From positions 1,302,001 to 1,366,000 of the forward strand of contig NZ_CP139035.1 of assembly GCF_029854705.2 (NCBI RefSeq): DNA of 64,000 nt. The letters are read 5' to 3'. Positions within the stretch are counted from its first letter, which is position 1. Each line of letters begins with the position of its first letter. This document shows positions 51,843 through 61,713 of this stretch, in pieces. This stretch comes from Akkermansia sp. N21116 (GTDB lineage: Bacteria; Verrucomicrobiota; Verrucomicrobiia; Verrucomicrobiales; Akkermansiaceae). The notes under the pieces were generated by a model, which was given only the letters and a program-made list of their open reading frames with translations, was not told where the DNA came from and ran no database searches. Position numbers and translations under genes: made by a program.

Positions 51843-51917
51843 AGCCCCATAGTGTAATTGGTAACACACCTGATTTTGGTTCAGTATTTCTAGGTTCGAG
51901 TCCTGGTGGGGCTACCA
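51843..51917 (+). tRNA. tRNA-Gln (UUG anticodon), CCA encoded
   Basis: The 75 bases fold into a full cloverleaf. The acceptor stem is AGCCCCA/TGGGGCT, the D arm GTGT/ACAC with loop AATTGGTA, and the anticodon stem CCTGA/TCAGT (one mismatch at the outer pair) with loop TTTTGGT, so the anticodon is TTG. The T arm is CTAGG/CCTGG with loop TTCGAGT. The discriminator A and CCA follow. It is followed 9 bp later by a hairpin terminator. The adjacent integrase and island suggest it is or was an insertion target. Confidence 0.93.
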
Positions 51918-51925
51918 TCAGTTTC

Positions 51926-51957
51926 AAAAAGGCATCCTTTCTTAGGGTGCCTTTTTT
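51926..51957 (+). terminator. Terminator after tRNA-Gln
   Basis: AAAAAGGCATCC (51926-51937) pairs with GGGTGCCTTTTT (51945-51956) with one G-T pair and a 7-base loop, ending in six T. Confidence 0.85.
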
Positions 51958-52482
51958 GTGTTTGGGGTGTGTGCTGATACTCAGATTGACGAAAAAGAAT
52001 TTTCAATTCCCGACTTCGATCAATTCAGGAATTGTATAAAACATGACTTAAATGAAGCCAGGAATGAGGGAAAAAGAAAACAGCACGAAGGCTTGGCAAA
52101 CGACCATACTTGTTTTTCTTTTGAACGATACAGTGCTGAGTATCAGGATGAAGGTAATTCCCGGTCCATCAGAAAATACGGGGCGGGAATGCAATGAATT
52201 GTTCCGAAAGGGACCTCGATATCTTCCTGATAGCTGTCCGTGAGAATCCTGCCATGACGTTCGCCCATTTCTGCCATGACTGAGCTGAGAGTCCTGATTT
52301 CACGGGCTTTTGTCGGAGGGGGCACGGCAATACCGTGGCGTGGAAAAAAAGACCTGTTTCTAGTCTTGCATACCAACTCATTGTGGGGACAAGAGCTCTT
52401 TTTTTGATCGGAGGTGGATTGTTTGCAAGAACGGCGAGTTGGTTTCATCTCCGCTCATTTTGACGAAGAACGGAGAAGATAA
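51958..52482. other. Degenerate or non-coding stretch between tRNA and integrase
   Basis: About 525 bp without a convincing gene. A minus-strand frame at 52143-52448 (101 codons, MKPTRRSCKQSTSDQKK start) lacks a recognisable domain; its ATG directly follows GCGGAG, which is too close for a normal Shine-Dalgarno. It may be an island remnant. I found no obvious copy of the tRNA 3' end here by eye. Confidence 0.35.
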
Positions 52483-53508
52483 TTAGACTCCTTTCCAGAA
52501 TCTCTTTGCTTGTGTGTGGGTGATACCGTCCAGGTTGAGATAGCGAGTTCGGAGCAAGTGTGTATCGGAATGCCCCATTTCCAATTGGAGAGTATTCCAA
52601 TTCTTGTAATAAGCGCTGTAGTAACTGGCGAACGTATGTCTTAGAATATCTTGGATCCAGGGTTGCTCTGTTCCCCAACCGGCATTTTGGCGGATTCTTT
52701 TCCATTTGAGCGACCAGTTCCTGGGGCAGATTTTGTGATTATTCGGTTGTGCATTGTCTTTTGGCTTCAATAGTTTTTTGAGAACAGGTTGGATGGTTAC
52801 TTGACGGGCTCCTCCTGTTTTACTGTGCTGAGGTGGGATATAGATAGCATTGTTTTGCAGATCGACTTCTTGCCAAGTCAGTCTTTGGATTTCATGTGGA
52901 CGAATGCCGGCGTACAGCATTATGGCAATAGCAGGAAGACATTCCCCGTTAAATAATCGGGCTGCCGTTTGCAAAAGTATCTTACTTTCTCCCGTAGTCA
53001 GGGTGCGAATGCGGGTTTCCTTGATAAGGGGACTTCTGACCTGGGAAATAGGATTGCTTGAACACCATCCCTTGCGGATTCCAGTCGAAAAGATTCCACT
53101 GAGAATGAGCCTTCCTTTCTGACGTTGCCTGGGCGTAGAAAAAGTTTGATCAATGTATTTACGACAATCTTCCGAGGAAATGCTACGTATTTGACGATTC
53201 GATAGCCCCGGGCAATATTTGATGAATCGATTGGCAATGTACCGGATGTCGGATTGTGTCCTTGCTCTTAAATGGATGCGTTCTTCCAGCGAAGCATGAA
53301 CGCAGTCAATGAATCGGACACTTTTCTCTTTATTTTTGAGCGCTTCGCTTCCCAACCGGATACACTCCATTGCTCGTGAAACCGATTTGCCCCGTCCTTT
53401 GGAGGCAGTAATTAATTCGGTCAGGAGCATGATTGCTTCTGCGATGGAAATGTTCAATTCCCGGGTAATTTCACGGAATGTTATGTCGTTGGTAATGGAA
53501 GTGCTCAT
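52483..53508 (-). CDS. Tyrosine recombinase / integrase
   Basis: The 341 residues have an N-terminal arm-type region and an SAM-like core-binding domain (about 70-155, TQSDIRYIANRFIKYCPGLSNRQIRSI). The C-terminal catalytic domain has the Arg of the RKHRHY set in LYAGIRPHEIQRLTW (Arg203), the Lys in SKTGG, the HxxR box written DILRHTFAS with Asp where His is usual, and GHSDTHLLRTRYL with the nucleophilic Tyr near 320. It points towards the tRNA-Gln gene 566 bp away, as integrases of tRNA-targeted islands often do. A palindromic site lies 20 bp upstream of its start. Confidence 0.9.
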   Translation of the reverse strand: MSTSITNDITFREITRELNISIAEAIMLLTELITASKGRGKSVSRAMECIRLGSEALKNKEKSVRFIDCVHASLEERIHLRARTQSDIRYIANRFIKYCPGLSNRQIRSISSEDCRKYIDQTFSTPRQRQKGRLILSGIFSTGIRKGWCSSNPISQVRSPLIKETRIRTLTTGESKILLQTAARLFNGECLPAIAIMLYAGIRPHEIQRLTWQEVDLQNNAIYIPPQHSKTGGARQVTIQPVLKKLLKPKDNAQPNNHKICPRNWSLKWKRIRQNAGWGTEQPWIQDILRHTFASYYSAYYKNWNTLQLEMGHSDTHLLRTRYLNLDGITHTQAKRFWKGV

Positions 53509-53525
53509 CAGCCTTACATTGTGCC

Positions 53526-53542
53526 TACGAATTCAGAATTCG
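53526..53542. promoter_or_regulatory. Operator-like site 1, before the integrase
   Basis: The 17-bp site is TACGAATTCAGAATTCG; its 15-bp core CGAATTC-A-GAATTCG is a palindrome. The integrase start codon (minus strand) lies 18 bp away. The same sequence occurs in reverse at 53692-53708. Confidence 0.55.
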
Positions 53543-53691
53543 GCATCAAGTCTAAAATGTGGGAATTGATTTTATTTTCTGTTAGCTTGTTGATGATTGA
53601 AAATTTTACAGGAGAAACGGAATTATGATGCCATATTGCAGATTGGAATGGTGTTTCTTATTCATAGTGAACATATAATGAAATAATAGTG

Positions 53692-53708
53692 CGAATTCTG
53701 AATTCGTA
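53692..53708. promoter_or_regulatory. Operator-like site 2, at the exporter operon promoter
   Basis: The site is CGAATTCTGAATTCGTA, the exact reverse complement of site 1. Its last two bases are the first two of a TATAAT at 53707-53712, a consensus -10 for the plus-strand exporter operon (first gene at 53827). No good -35 was found at 17 bp upstream, so an activator, or another start site, is possible. Confidence 0.55.
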
Positions 53709-53826
53709 TAATAGGGGCAGGAAGGAGGAAGTGTGTCGGAAAAGGCTCCATCCTCAGCATAATCGTATGGTTGTCTGAACGGCCTCTTTCCTCTTTCTTT
53801 CCCAACAAATTAATCTAAAAACAACC

Positions 53827-54372
53827 ATGAAAATAACAAAAATCGCATTAATAGCTATTTGTAGCTTATCCGTTGTTATGTTTGATACTTCTTGCCATAA
53901 AAGCAAAGGTGGAGGTGGGAACAAATCTAACAATACTGAAAAAACAGAGGAGAAGGATACTTCTAAGGATGAAACTAAAGAAGATCAGAAAAATCCTATT
54001 GTCGAGATTGATTATGCCCCAGAAAATTTAATTAATGCAGAATTAAAAAATGTAGCTGGAGATATTTTTTATTTCTTTGGTAATTCTGCGAGATGGTCTG
54101 TTGCTGGACAATCTTATAATGGTAATGGTCTTTATGTAAAGGATACATCAACAAAAAACAAGGCAAGACTTAAATTTAGTGATCTTACTTTTGTAATGAC
54201 CCAATATCCTACTTATACGTACATTAAACATTCATTTGATGGAACTATTGTATTTACAGCAGAAGATCGTGCTATTTATACTGCGTCACATACAACTGAA
54301 ACAAAATCTTCGACAGGAGTAAAAAAACAAACTGCTAATGTGTCGTTTTCTTTTACGGTAAAACATGATTAA
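53827..54372 (+). CDS. Unknown lipoprotein, first gene of the exporter operon
   Basis: The 181 residues have a lipoprotein signal ending DTSC (Cys23), then a low-complexity linker rich in Gly, Lys, Asn, Glu and Thr (about 27-60) and a beta-rich domain (about 65-181, DIFYFFGNSARWSVAGQSYNG). I recognise no family. The sequence is markedly AT-rich compared with flanking core genes. Its stop lies within the start region of the adaptor gene (8-bp overlap), so the two are co-translated. It could be an envelope accessory or cargo of the exporter. Confidence 0.75.
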   Translation: MKITKIALIAICSLSVVMFDTSCHKSKGGGGNKSNNTEKTEEKDTSKDETKEDQKNPIVEIDYAPENLINAELKNVAGDIFYFFGNSARWSVAGQSYNGNGLYVKDTSTKNKARLKFSDLTFVMTQYPTYTYIKHSFDGTIVFTAEDRAIYTASHTTETKSSTGVKKQTANVSFSFTVKHD

Positions 54373-55366
54373 TGTTTTTATTTTAATTTTTTTACTTTTA
54401 GAAGTTGCCTCGGCTCATGAGTATTACATCTCCCGACAGCAGGCTAAAATAGTACCTAACCGCATTGAGATCGGCATTGCCGATGAGGCGGGAGAGGTGG
54501 AACTATTTCCTCCGAAAGAGAACCGGGTCAGGAGAGGAACTCTTCTTGCCAAGGTCAATGCCGATGCATTGGCCTTGGAGGAAGAAGAAATTCGGCAACA
54601 GGTTCGGCAAAACAATCTTGATTCTGAAACTACCCTTTTACAATTAAAACGTCAGAAGGAGGAACTAGAATTCATAGCTGGATTGCCGTCTGAGAAAAGA
54701 ATTTTTATCGGGAAAAAGATCGACACTCCTATTGACCAGCGAGCTATCAAATTACTTAACGAAAAAATCAGACTTCTCCAGGATAGAACGAAGTTGGCTA
54801 ATGAAAAAATTCTGACTATTTTTCACAAGAAAAAAGCATTGAAGACGATATGCATGCCTTTTGATGGTCGTGTGCAATATCAAGTTTCTTTACCGGAACA
54901 CAAAGAAGAGAAGGTTTTTGTCCAGGCGTCGACTCCCATTGTAACGGCAGTCGATGATTCTGCGTTTTTCATTGTTGTTGGTATAACGGATCCAGGATTG
55001 GCCAAGCTTGATCCAACCCTTCTATCTGTCCATCTGGAATTGGGTGGTGGTGAAAACTTACATGCTATCTGGGATCACAAGAAGATAGAAAAATCCGGGC
55101 AAGAGGAAGTTTTAGTGTATTTCTTCAAGGTGGGAAACAATGATTCAGACAAAGCTTGGGGACTTCTCGGTTCTAATACCGTGGTTCGGTTATGCTACCG
55201 TGGTGACGATACTTGCCTCTACGAGGCGAAATTTACATTGGCTCGCGAAGCTAAAAACGTTCCTTTCGAAACATGGGAAAAACTAGTTGAAATACTGAGG
55301 CCCGGTTACTGTATTGTTTTTGTAGGGGAAACTCATTTGTGCCTCCGCAAAAAACAGGTTCCATGA
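54365..55366 (+). CDS. Periplasmic adaptor (membrane-fusion) protein
   Basis: The 333 residues start with a signal peptide (MINVFILIFLLLEVASAHE). A lipoyl-like half (NRIEIGIADEAGEVELFPPKENRVRRGTLLAKV) is followed by a coiled-coil hairpin (about 75-165, EEEIRQQVRQNNLDSETTLLQLKRQKEEL). The second lipoyl half is KTICMPFDGRVQYQVSLPEHKEEKVFVQASTPIVTAVDD, and beta-barrel segments follow. This is the HlyD/MacA layout, bridging an inner-membrane permease and an outer-membrane channel. It ends in an ATGA overlap with the permease gene. Confidence 0.8.
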   Translation: MINVFILIFLLLEVASAHEYYISRQQAKIVPNRIEIGIADEAGEVELFPPKENRVRRGTLLAKVNADALALEEEEIRQQVRQNNLDSETTLLQLKRQKEELEFIAGLPSEKRIFIGKKIDTPIDQRAIKLLNEKIRLLQDRTKLANEKILTIFHKKKALKTICMPFDGRVQYQVSLPEHKEEKVFVQASTPIVTAVDDSAFFIVVGITDPGLAKLDPTLLSVHLELGGGENLHAIWDHKKIEKSGQEEVLVYFFKVGNNDSDKAWGLLGSNTVVRLCYRGDDTCLYEAKFTLAREAKNVPFETWEKLVEILRPGYCIVFVGETHLCLRKKQVP

Positions 55367-56496
55367 AATCGACTCTTCTCATTGTCCTCTATTTGATCAA
55401 GGACATGTTTTACCGATGGTTAATGAGAATTTCCTGTCCTCTATCGCGTTTTCTCGTGGTTCTCTTTCTCTGTTTTTGTGCATTTGTTTTCCTAAGTAGC
55501 TACATTATTTCCATTAAGGCATTGGAGGAACGTATCCAGAGCAGTGGAGCGGATTTGATTGTTGTTACGGAATTTGTGTCGGGGACATCTTGTGTCCACG
55601 CTTCCGGTTATACAATTATTCCGTCTCAGTCTGACGAATATGAACTCCATTTATTTCATGAGCCGTTTCTATCTGCTATGATTGGAGAACAGTTTTATCC
55701 TCTTGTTGAGTATATGCCTATTTCTACTAGATTGTTTGAAAATGTACTTGGATGCGGGAATGGAATTTGTATCCTTCCCAAGGAGCCTTGTGAGACTATT
55801 TCTCCCATGGATTGTACTGTGGACGATCATTTAGTCCACGCTGTTACTTTACCTGATTCCTCCTATCCTATGCTTCGAAGGATTTATCAGGGGGGAGCAG
55901 TTTTTTTCCCATATGGGACACTTCATGGAATTTGGAATACTGGATTCACAAGGAAGTATGTTTTGAGGGTAAAATGTGCGGACGAAGTGCATGTAGGGAT
56001 TTTGGAGGATACGATCAATCAGCTTATTCGGCTGGATAAAAAGAGCATGGGTCTTGTCAGCAGCCGTTCTCTTCTGGGAGAGCTGGCGCAGTTGCGTTCG
56101 TCGCAATATTTGTTTCGCGTGTGGGTTTCCATTGGTATTTCAGCAATCATTTGTCTGTTGCTTACGTCGATTTCTTCTCTTGAATTTCGACAGAATGAAT
56201 ATGTATATGCGTTGATGGGGAGTTTTGGGGTGAGCCGTATGATGTTGTTTGGTTCGTTTTTAGTGGAGAATACACTTTTGGTTTCTGGCGGTTTTGCTGC
56301 GTCTCTGGGGTGCTTGTGGGGAGTGAGGAGGTTTATTTCATCGGACCTGTATAAATCACCTGGTTTGACAATTGAATGGTGGGAATTGTCGGACGATATA
56401 CGGACATTTTGTCTGTCGTTTGGCATCTGTATTCTTGTCTCTTGTATTCCCATTGCGTGTTCAATTTATAGGCCGATCGGGAGGGTTTTAAAATAG
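55363..56496 (+). CDS. MacB/FtsX-like ABC permease without fused ATPase
   Basis: The ATG at 55363 (in an ATGA overlap) gives 377 residues. The layout is one helix near 27-52 (RFLVVLFLCFCAFVFLSSYIIS), a periplasmic domain of about 200 residues with several Cys (ADLIVVTEFVSGTSCVHAS, GCGNGICILPKEPC), then three helices in the last 130 residues. This is the FtsX/MacB permease topology. The family normally works with a separate or fused LolD/MacB-type ATPase, but no Walker motif occurs in this operon. The frame upstream of 55363 overlaps the adaptor gene. Confidence 0.75.
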   Translation: MKSTLLIVLYLIKDMFYRWLMRISCPLSRFLVVLFLCFCAFVFLSSYIISIKALEERIQSSGADLIVVTEFVSGTSCVHASGYTIIPSQSDEYELHLFHEPFLSAMIGEQFYPLVEYMPISTRLFENVLGCGNGICILPKEPCETISPMDCTVDDHLVHAVTLPDSSYPMLRRIYQGGAVFFPYGTLHGIWNTGFTRKYVLRVKCADEVHVGILEDTINQLIRLDKKSMGLVSSRSLLGELAQLRSSQYLFRVWVSIGISAIICLLLTSISSLEFRQNEYVYALMGSFGVSRMMLFGSFLVENTLLVSGGFAASLGCLWGVRRFISSDLYKSPGLTIEWWELSDDIRTFCLSFGICILVSCIPIACSIYRPIGRVLK

Positions 56497-56506
56497 TGTA
56501 TCTGCA

Positions 56507-57745
56507 ATGATTTCTTTTATCAGAGTTCTTGTTGTTTTGTGTGTTTTGATAGAGGCGGGGTGTTCTCCTGAACAACGTCTCGAACGCGCTCGTACAGAAT
56601 TGATGGAACAATACGCCAGTATTCCTAATTATGATTTTTTGCCGGAGCGCCGATTGAGCTGGAATGATGCTTTGGCGATGCTGGAGAAGAACAATCTTGA
56701 ATATAATCAGGCACTTAAGGAATGGCGTGATGCGAAAAGTAAGGAGAACAAGGTTTATCGTGATCTGATCCCATTGGTCAATCTCGGTTATTATTACAAT
56801 ACTGCTTTATTGAATCAGGGAGGAATGGGATACGGGGATGAAAAAAATTATAATATGAATATTATATTCAATATTCCGGCGCTGACTCAAATCCCGATTG
56901 ATCATTACACGAGTTCTTTGATTGCATTCAAAGCGCTCAAGAATTGTGAATTGAAGAAGAGGGAACTGGTGGCGAAACTTTACCAGATATTTCGGGAATA
57001 TGATCTTGATGCGAGAGAGAATGCGTTAGCCGGAGATGTATACGTGTACGATGAGATTCTAAGGAAGGAGCAACAGAGACAACATGAACTTGAAATGCGC
57101 AAAAAATGGGGACAGTTATGTATGCTGATCAATGATTATTCGGCAAGATGGCATCCTGTTGGTGCGACGGTACCGGCGGTGTCGTGGAATCAATACAGGA
57201 AACTGGTTACAGTTCCCGGAGATTTAACGCAAATAATGATGGCAATGGAGTTGGAGGCTTCAAGACTTAAAAAAATCGGGGTTCAGTTGCGGTATTGGCC
57301 AACGGTTCAGGTGGATTTTTATAGCCCCAGATTGTTTAGTATGAGCGGCGGTAATGATACGGGATTTATGGGAGGAGGCAATGACGTGCGGATTAATATG
57401 AATTTTTATTTACAATTGGATACTCGCCTTGATGTGTGGAGGGATCTGAAGGAGGCGAAGGCTTCACATGAATTGCTGGTCCGGTTGCTTCGACAAAAAA
57501 TGTTTGAATTTAAGGAAAAGACGGCTTTGCTGGTTAAAAGCTGGGATATGTATCGGGAGTGGAAGTCTGCTATGGAAGAATATGATGCTTTCCGACGGAA
57601 GCATGGAGCATTGGAGCCTGAAAGCCTCAAAAGCCTGTACGATGCATCTCTGGAATTAAAGAAGGAAACCATCGCGCGCGAACGGGAGAACCTGGAACGT
57701 GAATGCGCTCTGATTCAGGAATATGGGATTGGGCAAGGACGATGA
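56507..57745 (+). CDS. TolC-like outer-membrane efflux lipoprotein
   Basis: The 412 residues begin with a lipoprotein signal ending IEAGC (Cys19). Two long helical blocks (about 25-75 and 300-405, LSWNDALAMLEKNNLEYNQALKEW and ELLVRLLRQKMFEFKEKTALLVKSWDMY) surround beta-rich segments, as in outer-membrane efflux channels. The internal repeat of TolC is only weakly visible, and the helical barrel would be short. It completes an adaptor-permease-channel set. A small frame overlaps its stop (ATGA at 57742). Confidence 0.7.
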   Translation: MISFIRVLVVLCVLIEAGCSPEQRLERARTELMEQYASIPNYDFLPERRLSWNDALAMLEKNNLEYNQALKEWRDAKSKENKVYRDLIPLVNLGYYYNTALLNQGGMGYGDEKNYNMNIIFNIPALTQIPIDHYTSSLIAFKALKNCELKKRELVAKLYQIFREYDLDARENALAGDVYVYDEILRKEQQRQHELEMRKKWGQLCMLINDYSARWHPVGATVPAVSWNQYRKLVTVPGDLTQIMMAMELEASRLKKIGVQLRYWPTVQVDFYSPRLFSMSGGNDTGFMGGGNDVRINMNFYLQLDTRLDVWRDLKEAKASHELLVRLLRQKMFEFKEKTALLVKSWDMYREWKSAMEEYDAFRRKHGALEPESLKSLYDASLELKKETIARERENLERECALIQEYGIGQGR

Positions 57746-57936
57746 AGCGAAAGGTAGAACGGACTCTTTTATTTTGCCTGTCTTCCTCCTTTGGAAGATT
57801 GGGAAAGTACTGCATTGAGAAATTCTGGTTTCAGGATATACCCGGAAGAGTTTCCGTAATTAATTCTCTATCCCGGCAGGCAGAATATTTCAAACACCGG
57901 GTTTCCTCAATCCCACCCGGATGTCTCTTGGGGTGA
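57742..57936 (+). pseudogene. Small frame overlapping the channel gene, possibly a remnant
   Basis: The ATG at 57742 overlaps the preceding stop by 4 bp, like the permease start in this operon, and opens a 64-codon frame (MKRKVERTLLFCLSSSFGRLG). I see no domain or membrane segment. Because the start context mimics a coupled gene, this may be the truncated beginning of a lost last gene. It may equally be chance. Confidence 0.35.
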
Positions 57937-58213
57937 AGGGCTTGTAACCTTCTTTGTCGGTCATGTGGTTCGTTCAACTTCAATGATACAGGAGTGTAGT
58001 TCCTGCATTGAGCCCGTCTATTTGGACAGTGGCTCTTGTCGGAGAACTGCAACAATTGATGGTTTGCTTCTTTTTGTTGATGTTCGAACAACAGGAGGAA
58101 TAGTATTGATGTAGTTGTTAAGATGAAATATTTTTGGAAGCTTATCATGATGGTTGGACTTTATTCATTTTTAGATAAAATAATGTTTTCCTATGTTTAT
58201 ATATAAAATAAAA
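57937..58213. other. AT-rich non-coding end of the island
   Basis: About 280 bp of AT-rich sequence with no gene seen. It ends at the terminator of the next minus-strand operon. The island's right boundary is probably in or near this stretch. Confidence 0.4.
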
Positions 58214-58238
58214 CCCCATGAGCCGAAGGCCCATGGGG
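58211..58238 (-). terminator. Terminator of the pseudokinase operon
   Basis: CCCCATG-GCC (58214-58224, one mismatch) pairs with GGC-CATGGGG (58228-58238). On the minus strand a T-rich stretch follows (TTTTATTTTATATAT). It is 33 bp past the stop of the gene at 58271. Confidence 0.8.
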
Positions 58239-58270: not shown

Positions 58271-59890
58271 TTACGGTTTGCCGAATACTTCCAGTTCTCC
58301 GATAATGAGGGGCTGGTCGGTACCCAGGGATTCGATCCGGAGTCCTCGTGCTTGGACGGGTTCGGGGAGTTCCCATATTTCAGTACCGGGAACGGGAGTT
58401 CCGTCAGAGTGAAATTCTTTTTCAGCGACGATTTCTTTGTTGGCGTTGGCCAATTTGATGGAGAATTTGGTCATGGAACCAAGCTGGGCGTTATCAACGG
58501 GGGCGTGGATGACGATGCGGCTGACGGGACGTTCGTTGTCTTTGCCGAAGTCGACGGCGAACCATGAGGGTTTGTCTGGATCCGGGTTGGTGGCGGCGAT
58601 ACTTTCCTTATCTCCGTCAATGAGTTTTTCCGCTTCGTAAGCGGAGAGGTGTTTGAAGGGTTCGTTGGAGCGTACTTTGACGTTGCTTTCGCGGCACCAG
58701 TTGGTGAGTCCTTTTGTATCGGTGGGGGAAACGTCAACCGGAGCGGGTTGGACGGCGGCCGGAGTAACGGGGGCTGGAGAAGGAGTTGGCGTAGGTGCTG
58801 TAACAGGGGCGGGAGAGGCTGCCGGGGTGGCTGCCTGCTTCCTGGCTTCTCGTGTTTGCGCTTCGCGGATCCAGCCATTCTGGCGTTCTACTTTGGCTTT
58901 TTCAGCTTGGAGGGCTTTGATTTCCTTGCTGGTATCCAGCATGTCCAGCCTGTAAGAAACAGAGATGGCAGCCAAGGCTATGCCGATGATGAGAGCGGGG
59001 ATGAGGTAGAAGTACAGGATGGGGGCTCCCTTACGCTTGGCGGCTTCTTTGCTGAGGGCGGTTACGTTGGGAAGGGCGGATTTGCGGGGTTTCCTGACGG
59101 TTTTGGTGTCGCATCCGGGCAGGATGTTTTCCAGTTCGGAGACGAGTTCCAGGCAGGAAGCAAAACGTGCGTCCGGATTGGGGTTGATTGCTTTGGCTGT
59201 CAGGAGGTCTACTTCTTCGCTGCATTTGCAGTGGTTGGAGGGCATTTCAAAGCCGGTTCCGGAGGGAGTTTTGCCGGTGAGCATGAAGTAGAGGAGGAGG
59301 CCGAGAGAGTAGATGTCGGATTTGGACGTTTTACGGGCCCCGGCGGTCAATGATTCCGGCGCGAAGAATTCGAGTTGGGTTTTATCCGTCAGCAGGGGGG
59401 AGATGTTGAAGGGGATGATTTTGGGAATTTTGCCTCCAACCATGGAAATGAGAGCCGGAGTGATGCGTCCATGGTAGATGCCTTTGTTGTGGGCCAGGGA
59501 GAGGCCGAGGGCGAGGCCGCGGGTGTAGATCAGAGCATCTTTAGGTTTGATGCCTTCTCCCAGGCGGATTTGAATCAGGCTGGGGGCAGGCTCTTCTTCA
59601 GCAGCAATGTAGAGGTATTGTCCGTCTGCTGAGGTACCTGTTTCTGAGATCCCGACGAGATTGGGATGTTGGAATTTGACTGTTTCCGCAACATCCATCA
59701 TGAAGGATTCGCTCCATCCGACGGTGGCGGCCAGAGATGTGGGGACGATGTAAAGGATGAGCTGCCTCTGTCCGCTTGCAGTGGTGACCTGATAGGTGGC
59801 CGGCAGGGAGGCTGAGGAGATAAGCCCCGTGACGATGAACTGCGGAAAGGACTGTTGCAGGATTTCTGCAGAAGGTACGGTTGTTTCCAT
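58271..59890 (-). CDS. Membrane-anchored pseudokinase with discoidin-like domain
   Basis: The ATG at 59890 gives 539 residues; the longer frame to 60115 overlaps the neighbour. Residues about 1-260 follow a Ser/Thr protein kinase plan, but the usual residues are missing: no VAIK Lys, YHGRITPALI in place of HRDLKPxN (no catalytic Asp) and IPFNISP in place of DFG. FFAPESL (APE) and DIYSLGLLLYFMLTGKTP remain. A membrane helix (about 297-319), a coiled coil, an Ala/Pro/Thr-rich linker and a C-terminal F5/8 C-like beta domain (about 415-539, DGDKESIAATNPDPDKPSWFAVDFG) follow. The kinase fold should be cytoplasmic and the beta domain periplasmic. It is last in its operon. Confidence 0.8.
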   Translation of the reverse strand: METTVPSAEILQQSFPQFIVTGLISSASLPATYQVTTASGQRQLILYIVPTSLAATVGWSESFMMDVAETVKFQHPNLVGISETGTSADGQYLYIAAEEEPAPSLIQIRLGEGIKPKDALIYTRGLALGLSLAHNKGIYHGRITPALISMVGGKIPKIIPFNISPLLTDKTQLEFFAPESLTAGARKTSKSDIYSLGLLLYFMLTGKTPSGTGFEMPSNHCKCSEEVDLLTAKAINPNPDARFASCLELVSELENILPGCDTKTVRKPRKSALPNVTALSKEAAKRKGAPILYFYLIPALIIGIALAAISVSYRLDMLDTSKEIKALQAEKAKVERQNGWIREAQTREARKQAATPAASPAPVTAPTPTPSPAPVTPAAVQPAPVDVSPTDTKGLTNWCRESNVKVRSNEPFKHLSAYEAEKLIDGDKESIAATNPDPDKPSWFAVDFGKDNERPVSRIVIHAPVDNAQLGSMTKFSIKLANANKEIVAEKEFHSDGTPVPGTEIWELPEPVQARGLRIESLGTDQPLIIGELEVFGKP

Positions 59891-59964
59891 GGAGAATAAT
59901 GGGACGATGCTTATTAAAGATAACAGATTTGGTTGTACAGGCAAAACAAATGTACACGGACAGT

Positions 59965-61713
59965 TTAGTGGGTGACTGTCCGGGGGAGTTTCATAGGAGG
60001 ATTTGACTGCCAGAGAACAGGTTTGGCGGTGAAGTCCTGACGTGTGAACGGGATGTTGTTGTCTTGAAGATGCAGTCTGAGGATGCGGCGAAGTTCCAGG
60101 GCGGCCGGGATACACTCCTGGACGCTGTGGCCGGCAGGAACGATTTTTTCCGATTGGGCCCAGTCGAGGTGGGATGAGTAGTAGGCTACGATGCCATCGG
60201 AAGAGTTGGGGGTGTTGTTTCGTCCCCGGTCTCCGATGATGGAGTGGACGGGGATTCTATCGGAGGGGCGTATTTCCTGGATGCCCGTGATAAATGGCGA
60301 GGAAGGGGAGAGCTGGCGGATGCTGGTAAGTTCCTCTTCAATTTTCATGGGATTGAGGAGGAGCATATTGTTACTGAGCGTTCCTGTACGGACTACTTCC
60401 AACAGGATGGCTTCCGGGAGAGTGATAAGTTTTTGTCCAATCCGTCCTACCCATGAGTCGGCAAAGCGGGAACCCCGGTGAGGAGTTGCCATGAAGACGA
60501 TGCGGGATGTCTGTTGGGGAGGATTGAAGATGAAGGATTCCCGGAGTTTTTTGTCGTGTTCGAGGTCGGCTTGGGACGAAGGCAGCAGTTCTTCAAGCCG
60601 TGCTGTAACCTGGTCGTACGTCAGGGATCTGGCATTATTCATGCCTTTGATGAGTTTTTCCAGCATTCCCCAGGGGTGTTCCGAGTTGTTCATTCTGGTG
60701 ATAAGGCCGCCCATGGAGTGACCGATCATGAGCATTTTGTTGATGGGGCTGTTACGATCAGGAGTACCGTATTCGTCAAAAATGTATTGAAGGGCGTCGC
60801 GCTGGGCTTGTGCGGATTTGGCCCAGGGAATGCCGGATGGGTAGCCGAAGAACCAGAATTGGTAGTTGTGGCGGATAACGGGATCGGCCAGGAGGCGATT
60901 GGTGATGTTGGCGAATGTAGCCGGGGAGGACATGAGTCCGTGGGTGAAGAGGACGGGTATTTTTTTCGGAGAATAAGGCTCGGAGAAATAAAGGCCCATG
61001 TAGTTGACCGCTTTTTTAGGGCGGAAGGCACCGAGGATACCGGCGTTGGAAATGTCTTCACGATCCCAGAACAGGGAGATAGGGGCGGAGAAGTCGGCTG
61101 CCAGGGCTTGTTGAGTTGATCCGACGTTGACGGAGTCTTCAAGAAGACGGGGGATGAACCGCATGGCGGGTTTGCCGTTGACAGGGTGGTCGAAGTCCAG
61201 GATTGCCGTCAGGGTGTGGATGTTGCCGCTGTCTTTTAGAGATTCGTTTTGTCTTTTGACGGCATTTTTATTTCTTTTGACGATGCCGGCCAGTGGGATG
61301 CCCAGACCTTCAACGGTAACGCGTTCTTCCAAGTGAAAGCTGGTCTGGATTTTGGAACAGGGAATGACGTCTTCGTAGGTGCGGTAGTCGCGGTCGTTGC
61401 CAAGGGCTGAGGTTTCGACGGCGAAAGCTCCGGAAGGGGCTTGGATTCGGTCTCCGGAGTGCTCATTGAGTTTACGCCCGCGTTCCAGAAGGGTGAATAC
61501 CGCATGGTTGTATTGATTGAGGGCACCGGGCCATTCCTTCTTCCTGGAGGGATTCCCGAGGATGTCCCATGCCTTTTTGGCAAGGGCTACCTGGTCAATG
61601 TCGGAGGGTTCTCTGGAGTTGTAGATTTCTCTTGTATCCGGTGCATACGGAGGAGAACATGAAAGGGGCAGAAGGGTGGAGGCAAGAAGGACGATGGATA
61701 AGAGGTGTTTCAT
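59965..61713 (-). CDS. Lipoprotein alpha/beta hydrolase (esterase/lipase-like)
   Basis: The 582 residues have a lipoprotein signal ending LPLSC (Cys19). An unfamiliar N-terminal region of about 230 residues precedes an alpha/beta-hydrolase domain with PVLFTHGLMSSPATF (oxyanion loop), the nucleophile elbow GHSMGG (Ser near 333), ATPHRGSRFAD, an acid in SSDGIVAYYSSHL and the His in VPAGHSVQE. The arrangement resembles PGAP1/lipase-type enzymes. It probably acts in the periplasm or outer membrane on a lipid or ester. It lies between sufS and the pseudokinase on the same strand. Confidence 0.85.
   Translation of the reverse strand: MKHLLSIVLLASTLLPLSCSPPYAPDTREIYNSREPSDIDQVALAKKAWDILGNPSRKKEWPGALNQYNHAVFTLLERGRKLNEHSGDRIQAPSGAFAVETSALGNDRDYRTYEDVIPCSKIQTSFHLEERVTVEGLGIPLAGIVKRNKNAVKRQNESLKDSGNIHTLTAILDFDHPVNGKPAMRFIPRLLEDSVNVGSTQQALAADFSAPISLFWDREDISNAGILGAFRPKKAVNYMGLYFSEPYSPKKIPVLFTHGLMSSPATFANITNRLLADPVIRHNYQFWFFGYPSGIPWAKSAQAQRDALQYIFDEYGTPDRNSPINKMLMIGHSMGGLITRMNNSEHPWGMLEKLIKGMNNARSLTYDQVTARLEELLPSSQADLEHDKKLRESFIFNPPQQTSRIVFMATPHRGSRFADSWVGRIGQKLITLPEAILLEVVRTGTLSNNMLLLNPMKIEEELTSIRQLSPSSPFITGIQEIRPSDRIPVHSIIGDRGRNNTPNSSDGIVAYYSSHLDWAQSEKIVPAGHSVQECIPAALELRRILRLHLQDNNIPFTRQDFTAKPVLWQSNPPMKLPRTVTH

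Follow-up and report, generated by a model that had tools for sequence, protein, structure and literature searches.

In the gut bacterium Akkermansia sp. N21116, whose 3.50-Mb genome is assembled as a single contig, a tyrosine recombinase gene stands convergent with a tRNA-Gln and divergent from an operon that encodes, in this order, a lipoprotein, an adaptor, a permease and an outer-membrane channel. The stretch analysed, hereafter the window, comprises 64,000 nt around this locus. An initial annotation had listed these genes correctly, as ARAGORN, Pfam and the open reading frames (ORFs) bear out, and had rightly recognized a small export operon, but interpreted the whole as a minimal integrative element associated with the tRNA. 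It overlooked a perfect inverted repeat between the recombinase and the operon, as well as the lack of an ATPase to accompany the permease. We consider it probable that the locus is not an integrative island but a phase-variable lipoprotein-secretion module whose ATPase is supplied in trans.

An inverted repeat and a proposed split promoter upstream of the operon

The left arm of the repeat lies 17 bp from the recombinase gene, and both arms are 17 bp long (Table 1). Over the 64 kb scanned, this is the only perfect inverted repeat of at least 13 bp with a spacing of 60-450 bp. Among 20 Markov-shuffled windows, 15 contained no repeat of at least 13 bp at this spacing, and a single repeat of at least 15 bp arose. 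The core repeat motif, GAATTCNGAATTC, is found nowhere else in the 3.5-Mb genome.

The position of the arms relative to promoter elements suggests a mechanism. The recombinase would invert the 149-bp segment that the two 17-bp arms enclose. The operon-side arm would serve as the spacer of a split sigma-70 promoter, whose -10 element is fixed on the operon side and whose -35 element lies within the segment, at its distal end. As assembled, the fixed -10 element has no -35 partner, which corresponds to an OFF state, and inversion would create TTGATG-N16-TATAAT, the predicted ON state. The locus displays two features of an inverton, repeats flanking part of a promoter and an adjacent site-specific recombinase, the latter likewise present in five related operons.

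Conservation of the switch in related operons

Related operons without an ATPase, hereafter satellites, were compared with the window (L-numbers denote fetched loci and G-numbers genomes). Six satellite operons, including that of the window, adjoin a divergent recombinase gene, and every one of them carries a perfect repeat of 13-17 bp in this place; in the five others, 109-164 bp separate the arms. In each of the six, a -35/-10 pair spans the operon-side arm in one of the two orientations. The pair exists as assembled in L034 (TTGACA-N17-TAGTAT) and L035 (TTGACA-N17-TAGAAT). In the window, L032, L033 and L095, the -35 element faces the wrong way and the pair is completed only after inversion, giving TTGAAT-N17-TATAAC in L032, TTGCAT-N17-TATATA in L033, where the -35 element is poor (3/6), and TTGACT-N17-TATCAT in L095. 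The invertible segment of the window is too diverged from those of its relatives for comparison in either orientation.

Genus-wide, a repeat was detected at 28 of 30 recombinase loci, and TTGAN, mostly TTGACT, was found at an inner edge of an arm in 23 of the 30, versus 3.9% at random positions; because of their mutual relatedness, these loci do not amount to 30 independent tests. Direct natural evidence that switches of this family flip is provided by L070 and L075, from two species. Their recombinase-side flanks are 100% identical, and their inner segments are 96% identical only when one of them is inverted, compared with 46% otherwise. The current activity of these two recombinases is uncertain, because each match contains one in-frame stop. 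A further switch-like segment, enclosed by a 59-bp perfect inverted repeat, was observed at the contig end in L056, where the assembly probably stops inside a variable switch.

A recombinase predicted to act as an invertase

The recombinase scores 47 bits against the Pfam Phage_integrase profile (cut-off 27) and retains the catalytic residues Arg (AGIRP), Arg-His (LRH), His (MGH) and Tyr (RY). At residue 287 the box II His is replaced by an Asp (DxxRH), as in all 38 family members aligned. The protein belongs to a large Akkermansia family, with up to 22 matches per genome, which adjoins short promoter-bearing inverted repeats, and given these adjacent repeats the family is predicted to resemble dedicated invertases.

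In a tree of 38 homologues, L032-L035 and L095 have recombinases that fall into one clade (100/98), far from the recombinase of the window, which groups weakly (90/94) with homologues located beside other genes. The repeats differ along the same clades, with a CATTnnnAATG type in L032-L035 and L095 versus a GAATTC type. The exporter is conserved, with a permease identity of 48-56%, whereas the recombinase has been replaced along with its repeat. Phase control of this operon therefore apparently arose at least twice.

The tRNA-Gln and the integrative-element interpretation

According to the initial annotation, the recombinase would insert a cassette at the 3′ end of tRNA-Gln, with the operon as cargo. 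The recombinase does adjoin the tRNA, and the claim that the gene set is AT-richer than its surroundings was confirmed: the operon has a G+C content (GC) of 32-43% and the recombinase gene one of 46%, versus 53.5% in window positions 1-51800, and GC at third codon positions (GC3) is 18-47% versus about 60% in the neighbours. Satellite copies are also patchy across the genus, being present in 8 of 76 species genomes. This distribution is consistent with horizontal acquisition of the operon. Because related satellites in other species have a GC of 50-55%, slightly under that of their surroundings, the low GC is peculiar to the window copy, which suggests on compositional grounds a recent or foreign acquisition.

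The association with the tRNA itself was not supported. Downstream, no direct repeat of the tRNA 3′ end was found, the best 18-mer match being 12/18 and the longest exact common word 10 nt. A tRNA was present near one of nine related loci scanned, and it was a tRNA-Leu; conversely, two other species (L144, L147) have tRNA-Gln next to prfA but no such operon. A comparison of relatives at tRNA-Gln/prfA yielded no precise empty site, because gene content upstream of prfA is variable among the genomes compared. The prfA-prmC-priA block is kept, but its upstream neighbours are not syntenic across the genus and change from species to species in the manner of a variable hot spot (window 51708 onward; L149-L156), where a tRNA-Glu or a tRNA-Gln may stand beside prfA. 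The missing repeat and the unrelated sites, without tRNA-Gln, of related modules led us to reject integration at the tRNA end. The recombinase family, in addition, adjoins short invertible promoters, and we consider a minimal integrative element very unlikely.

An exporter that lacks its own ATPase

The permease matched PF02687 above the cut-off. A sequence-profile search against the PDB returned nothing, whereas the fold search with its structural model (predicted local distance difference test score, pLDDT, 84.6) matched MacB (E 1.5e-8), LolE (E 1.1e-7) and a MacAB-TolC chain (template modelling score, TM, 0.63). The best PDB matches of the adaptor profile A3 were MacA proteins, with a weak E value of 0.03, and the core homologue of the channel exceeds the OEP cut-off while the window copy falls below it. 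Of the features of a type VII (MacB/Lol-type) ATP-binding cassette (ABC) exporter, the operon shows the FtsX-like permease fold, but no dedicated ATPase.

Homologues of the permease were found only in Akkermansia, in records titled Akkermansia or Akkermansiaceae, one uncultured Verrucomicrobiales and two uncultured bacteria (genome contigs), and none was detected in 22 other genomes of the order. A member of the exporter family is present in 72 of 76 Akkermansia genomes. Two kinds of loci can be distinguished. Core loci encode an ABC ATPase between adaptor and permease (17 of 17 read), with intact Walker A, signature and Walker B motifs in the two sequences inspected. The ATPase is absent from the window operon and from all satellite loci, and all eight genomes with satellites possess an ATPase-bearing core copy. 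In G013, probably A. glycaniphila, two core-type permease copies with identical scores (C1:65267 and C18:98898) were noted, which may represent a real duplication or an assembly artefact.

Core and satellite permeases share an identity of about 0.5-0.6 in their N-terminal and C-terminal segments and 0.5 around SLEFRQNEYVYALMGSFG, aligned by eye to the coupling-helix region of MacB, but 0.06-0.3 in the periplasmic domain. Such a distribution of identity would be predicted for satellites that bind the core ATPase and transport a different cargo, and we infer from it that they may do so. Alternatively, the satellite could be powered by LolD or another ATPase, or work without any. The genome does hold other FtsX-family permeases outside this exporter family, for example at 1860010, but the satellite permease is similar to the core permease in its ATPase-facing segments, and no satellite genome lacks the core ATPase, so that we regard this alternative as rather unlikely.

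A second satellite without an ATPase occurs in the same genome (L029, at about 2.79-2.80 Mb). It encodes a CGGGG lipoprotein, has neither recombinase nor inverted repeat, and is apparently not phase variable.

A glycine-tethered barrel lipoprotein as candidate cargo

The lipoprotein of the window combines a predicted lipidation cysteine, Cys23, in the sequence CHKSKGGGG, a disordered linker, a conserved AP..L motif and a predicted eight-stranded antiparallel barrel (alignments A1/A4 and model). In the AlphaFold2 model (pLDDT 75), the eight antiparallel strands follow the disordered tether and most of the barrel scores 74-93. Avidin-type barrels were the closest structures (Z 11.7), a likeness that would concern barrel topology only and implies no biotin binding; the Foldseek search gave no match with E < 0.001.

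Satellite operons mostly encode one to several lipoproteins with a mature start of CGGGG(G)n, a low-complexity linker, the AP..L motif and one or more repeats; the lipoproteins of L096 and L097 lack the poly-Gly stretch. Among the predicted lipoproteins of the fetched loci, all those listed with at least five Gly in the ten residues after the Cys are encoded in satellite operons or by the first gene of the core operon. In the host genome, one of 14 poly-Gly DNA matches falls in a lipobox, that of the second satellite's lipoprotein; the DNA pattern is no commoner there than its reversed control, and DNA counts alone are uninformative.

In the ON state, the operon would thus produce a Gly-tethered barrel lipoprotein together with a MacA-like adaptor, a MacB/LolE-type permease and a TolC-like channel. 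This exporter would extract the lipoprotein from the inner membrane and expose it on the cell surface, with the ATPase provided in trans by the core exporter copy of the genome.

The same phase-variable operon could instead encode a MacAB-like efflux pump or peptide exporter, in which the lipoprotein would be an accessory, such as a substrate-binding or adaptor protein, and not the cargo. MacAB-TolC exports peptides and drugs, and the permease fold and the adaptor are nearest MacB and MacA, respectively. As for a cargo, however, the lipoprotein genes vary in number and length beside conserved exporters, with tandem copies and up to 640 aa in L035, and in the loci examined the Gly tether is common only to exporter-linked lipoproteins. 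The efflux alternative therefore appears unlikely. In L035:6590-18938, two tandem satellite exporters accompany five poly-Gly lipoproteins, one of them, of 640 aa, with about five barrel-like repeats.

Arguments against a functional secretion switch

Several observations weigh against the proposed phase-variable secretion of the lipoprotein. The orientation of the window switch is known from one assembly, of a single strain of the species, and its inversion is predicted from sequence. Its TTGATG-N16 arrangement provides a weaker -35 element than the TTGACA/T-N17 of its relatives, and the genome's own second satellite (L029), as well as L096, shows no switch. Without an ATPase in cis, the operon may not work at all or may depend on a different ATPase. 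Among the cargo lipoproteins, that of the window is divergent, being 17-25% identical to the others and starting with CHKSKGGGG instead of CGGGG, and surface display is proposed by analogy.

Some of these properties would also fit an acquired operon in decay, with the switch as a remnant: the locus is AT-rich and OFF as assembled, and its channel and adaptor fall below the OEP and adaptor family cut-offs. Yet all five ORFs are open, the permease is 52-56% identical to most intact satellite relatives, and both the catalytic residues of the recombinase and the perfect repeat are kept, which makes decay very unlikely. The phase-variable secretion module therefore remains our preferred interpretation.

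Relation to known systems

PMC11892184, citing Jiang 2019, and PMC13343947 record invertons in Akkermansia, and the cps1 capsule inverton of A. muciniphila was reported as phase variable (PMC13343947). Like the window switch, A. muciniphila invertons have inverted repeats of about 13-17 bp lying about 150 bp apart and control surface functions. Unlike them, the window switch drives an exporter and a lipoprotein, has its own adjacent recombinase, and uses the genome-unique repeat motif described above. In G059, which we take to be the A. muciniphila type strain, a repeat upstream of a Wza-like capsule gene (L109:1109-1292) gives TTGACA-N17-TAATTA only after inversion. This repeat is probably the published cps1 switch, although the published inverton coordinates do not fall on repeats in G059, likely owing to a different origin of the record, and the 13-bp repeat that fits the split-promoter rule is about 2 kb away. 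No description of the split promoter was found in the literature searched, a comparison that does not extend to the Akkermansia promoter motif which Jiang reportedly published in 2019.

In function, the nearest described system is Aat of E. coli (AatPABCD with CexE/Aap), which likewise combines a LolE/MacB-type permease, a MacA-like adaptor, a TolC-like channel and a small acylated surface protein (PMC7943197). The window also encodes permease, adaptor and TolC-like channel together, the adaptor and channel matches being weak. Unlike in Aat, the cargo would carry an ordinary Cys lipobox, with a variant poly-Gly stretch and a Cys that is invariant by sequence, not an acylated N-terminal glycine, and the operon has a promoter switch and no ATPase. 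The genome has four CN_hydrolase matches, all of them distant from the three exporters, so that no AatD-like acyltransferase accompanies any of these. Because no AatD counterpart is nearby and the cargo has a Cys lipobox, we did not assign the system to Aat. With MacAB-TolC and LolCDE the window shares the permease fold. MacB carries its ATPase fused and LolCDE has an ATPase in its operon, unlike the satellite operons.

Slam-dependent surface lipoproteins of known structure consist of a flexible handle and an eight-stranded barrel (PMC5449769), an architecture that parallels the tether and barrel of the cargo model without being evidence of kinship. The export partner in the window would differ, being an ABC tripartite machine, and no sequence relation is shown; no Slam (DUF560) protein was noticed beside the operon, although no search was aimed at it.

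Taken singly, the inverton and the type VII exporter are of ordinary kinds, and the novelty would lie in their combination, with satellites devoid of an ATPase, a motor in common, exchanged switches and a Gly-tethered cargo. We tentatively suggest, as a possibility that we do not yet favour, a genus-specific secretion system in which one ATPase-bearing core exporter serves interchangeable ATPase-less satellites, each contributing a distinct Gly-tethered barrel lipoprotein and often a split-promoter switch of its own, so that display would be stochastic and powered by one shared motor. No paper on lipoprotein transport to the surface in Akkermansia was found in the literature searched, and this transport appears unexplained in Verrucomicrobiota. 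If correct, the scheme would point to a candidate machine for this transport, to a run of glycines after the Cys as a candidate export signature, and to a way for ABC exporters to share a motor. The rule that the arm is the promoter spacer, with the -35 element inside and the -10 element outside the segment, would predict the ON or OFF state of Akkermansia switches from an assembly, including the apparent capsule switch linked to colonisation.

Features of the locus

Table 1. Positions in the window of the genes and switch elements of the locus
Feature	Position	Strand	Basis or remark
Left arm of the perfect 17-bp inverted repeat, TACGAATTCAGAATTCG	53526-53542		Repeat scan
Predicted invertible segment, 149 bp	53543-53691		Between the arms; same architecture in L032, L033, L034, L035, L095
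-35 half of the split promoter, TTGATG	53544-53549	-	Faces away from the operon as assembled
Right arm, CGAATTCTGAATTCGTA, serving as promoter spacer	53692-53708		Repeat scan
Fixed -10 element, TATAAT	53707-53712	+	Overlaps the end of the right arm
tRNA-Gln (TTG)	51843-51917	+	ARAGORN; regarded as a chance neighbour and not as a site of attachment
Tyrosine recombinase, 341 aa, predicted dedicated DNA invertase	52483-53508	-	Pfam PF00589, homologue tree and alignment
Lipoprotein, predicted cargo	53827-54372	+	Alignments A1/A4, AlphaFold2 model
Periplasmic adaptor (MacA/HlyD-like)	54365-55366	+	HlyD_3 E 0.036; profile A3 against the PDB
FtsX/MacB-type permease without ATPase	55363-56496	+	PF02687 above cut-off; structure model
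TolC/OprM-like outer-membrane channel, probable lipoprotein	56507-57745	+	OEP E 0.0011, below Pfam cut-off
Short ORFs	52143-52448 and 57831-58148

The permease ORF is also open from a GTG at 55339. Beyond the operon, a terminator-like hairpin at 58214-58238 belongs to the neighbouring minus-strand gene. The protein encoded there (58271-60115, minus strand) carries a protein-kinase domain and an F5/8 type C domain, and its nearest relatives found in other species are 36% identical to it.

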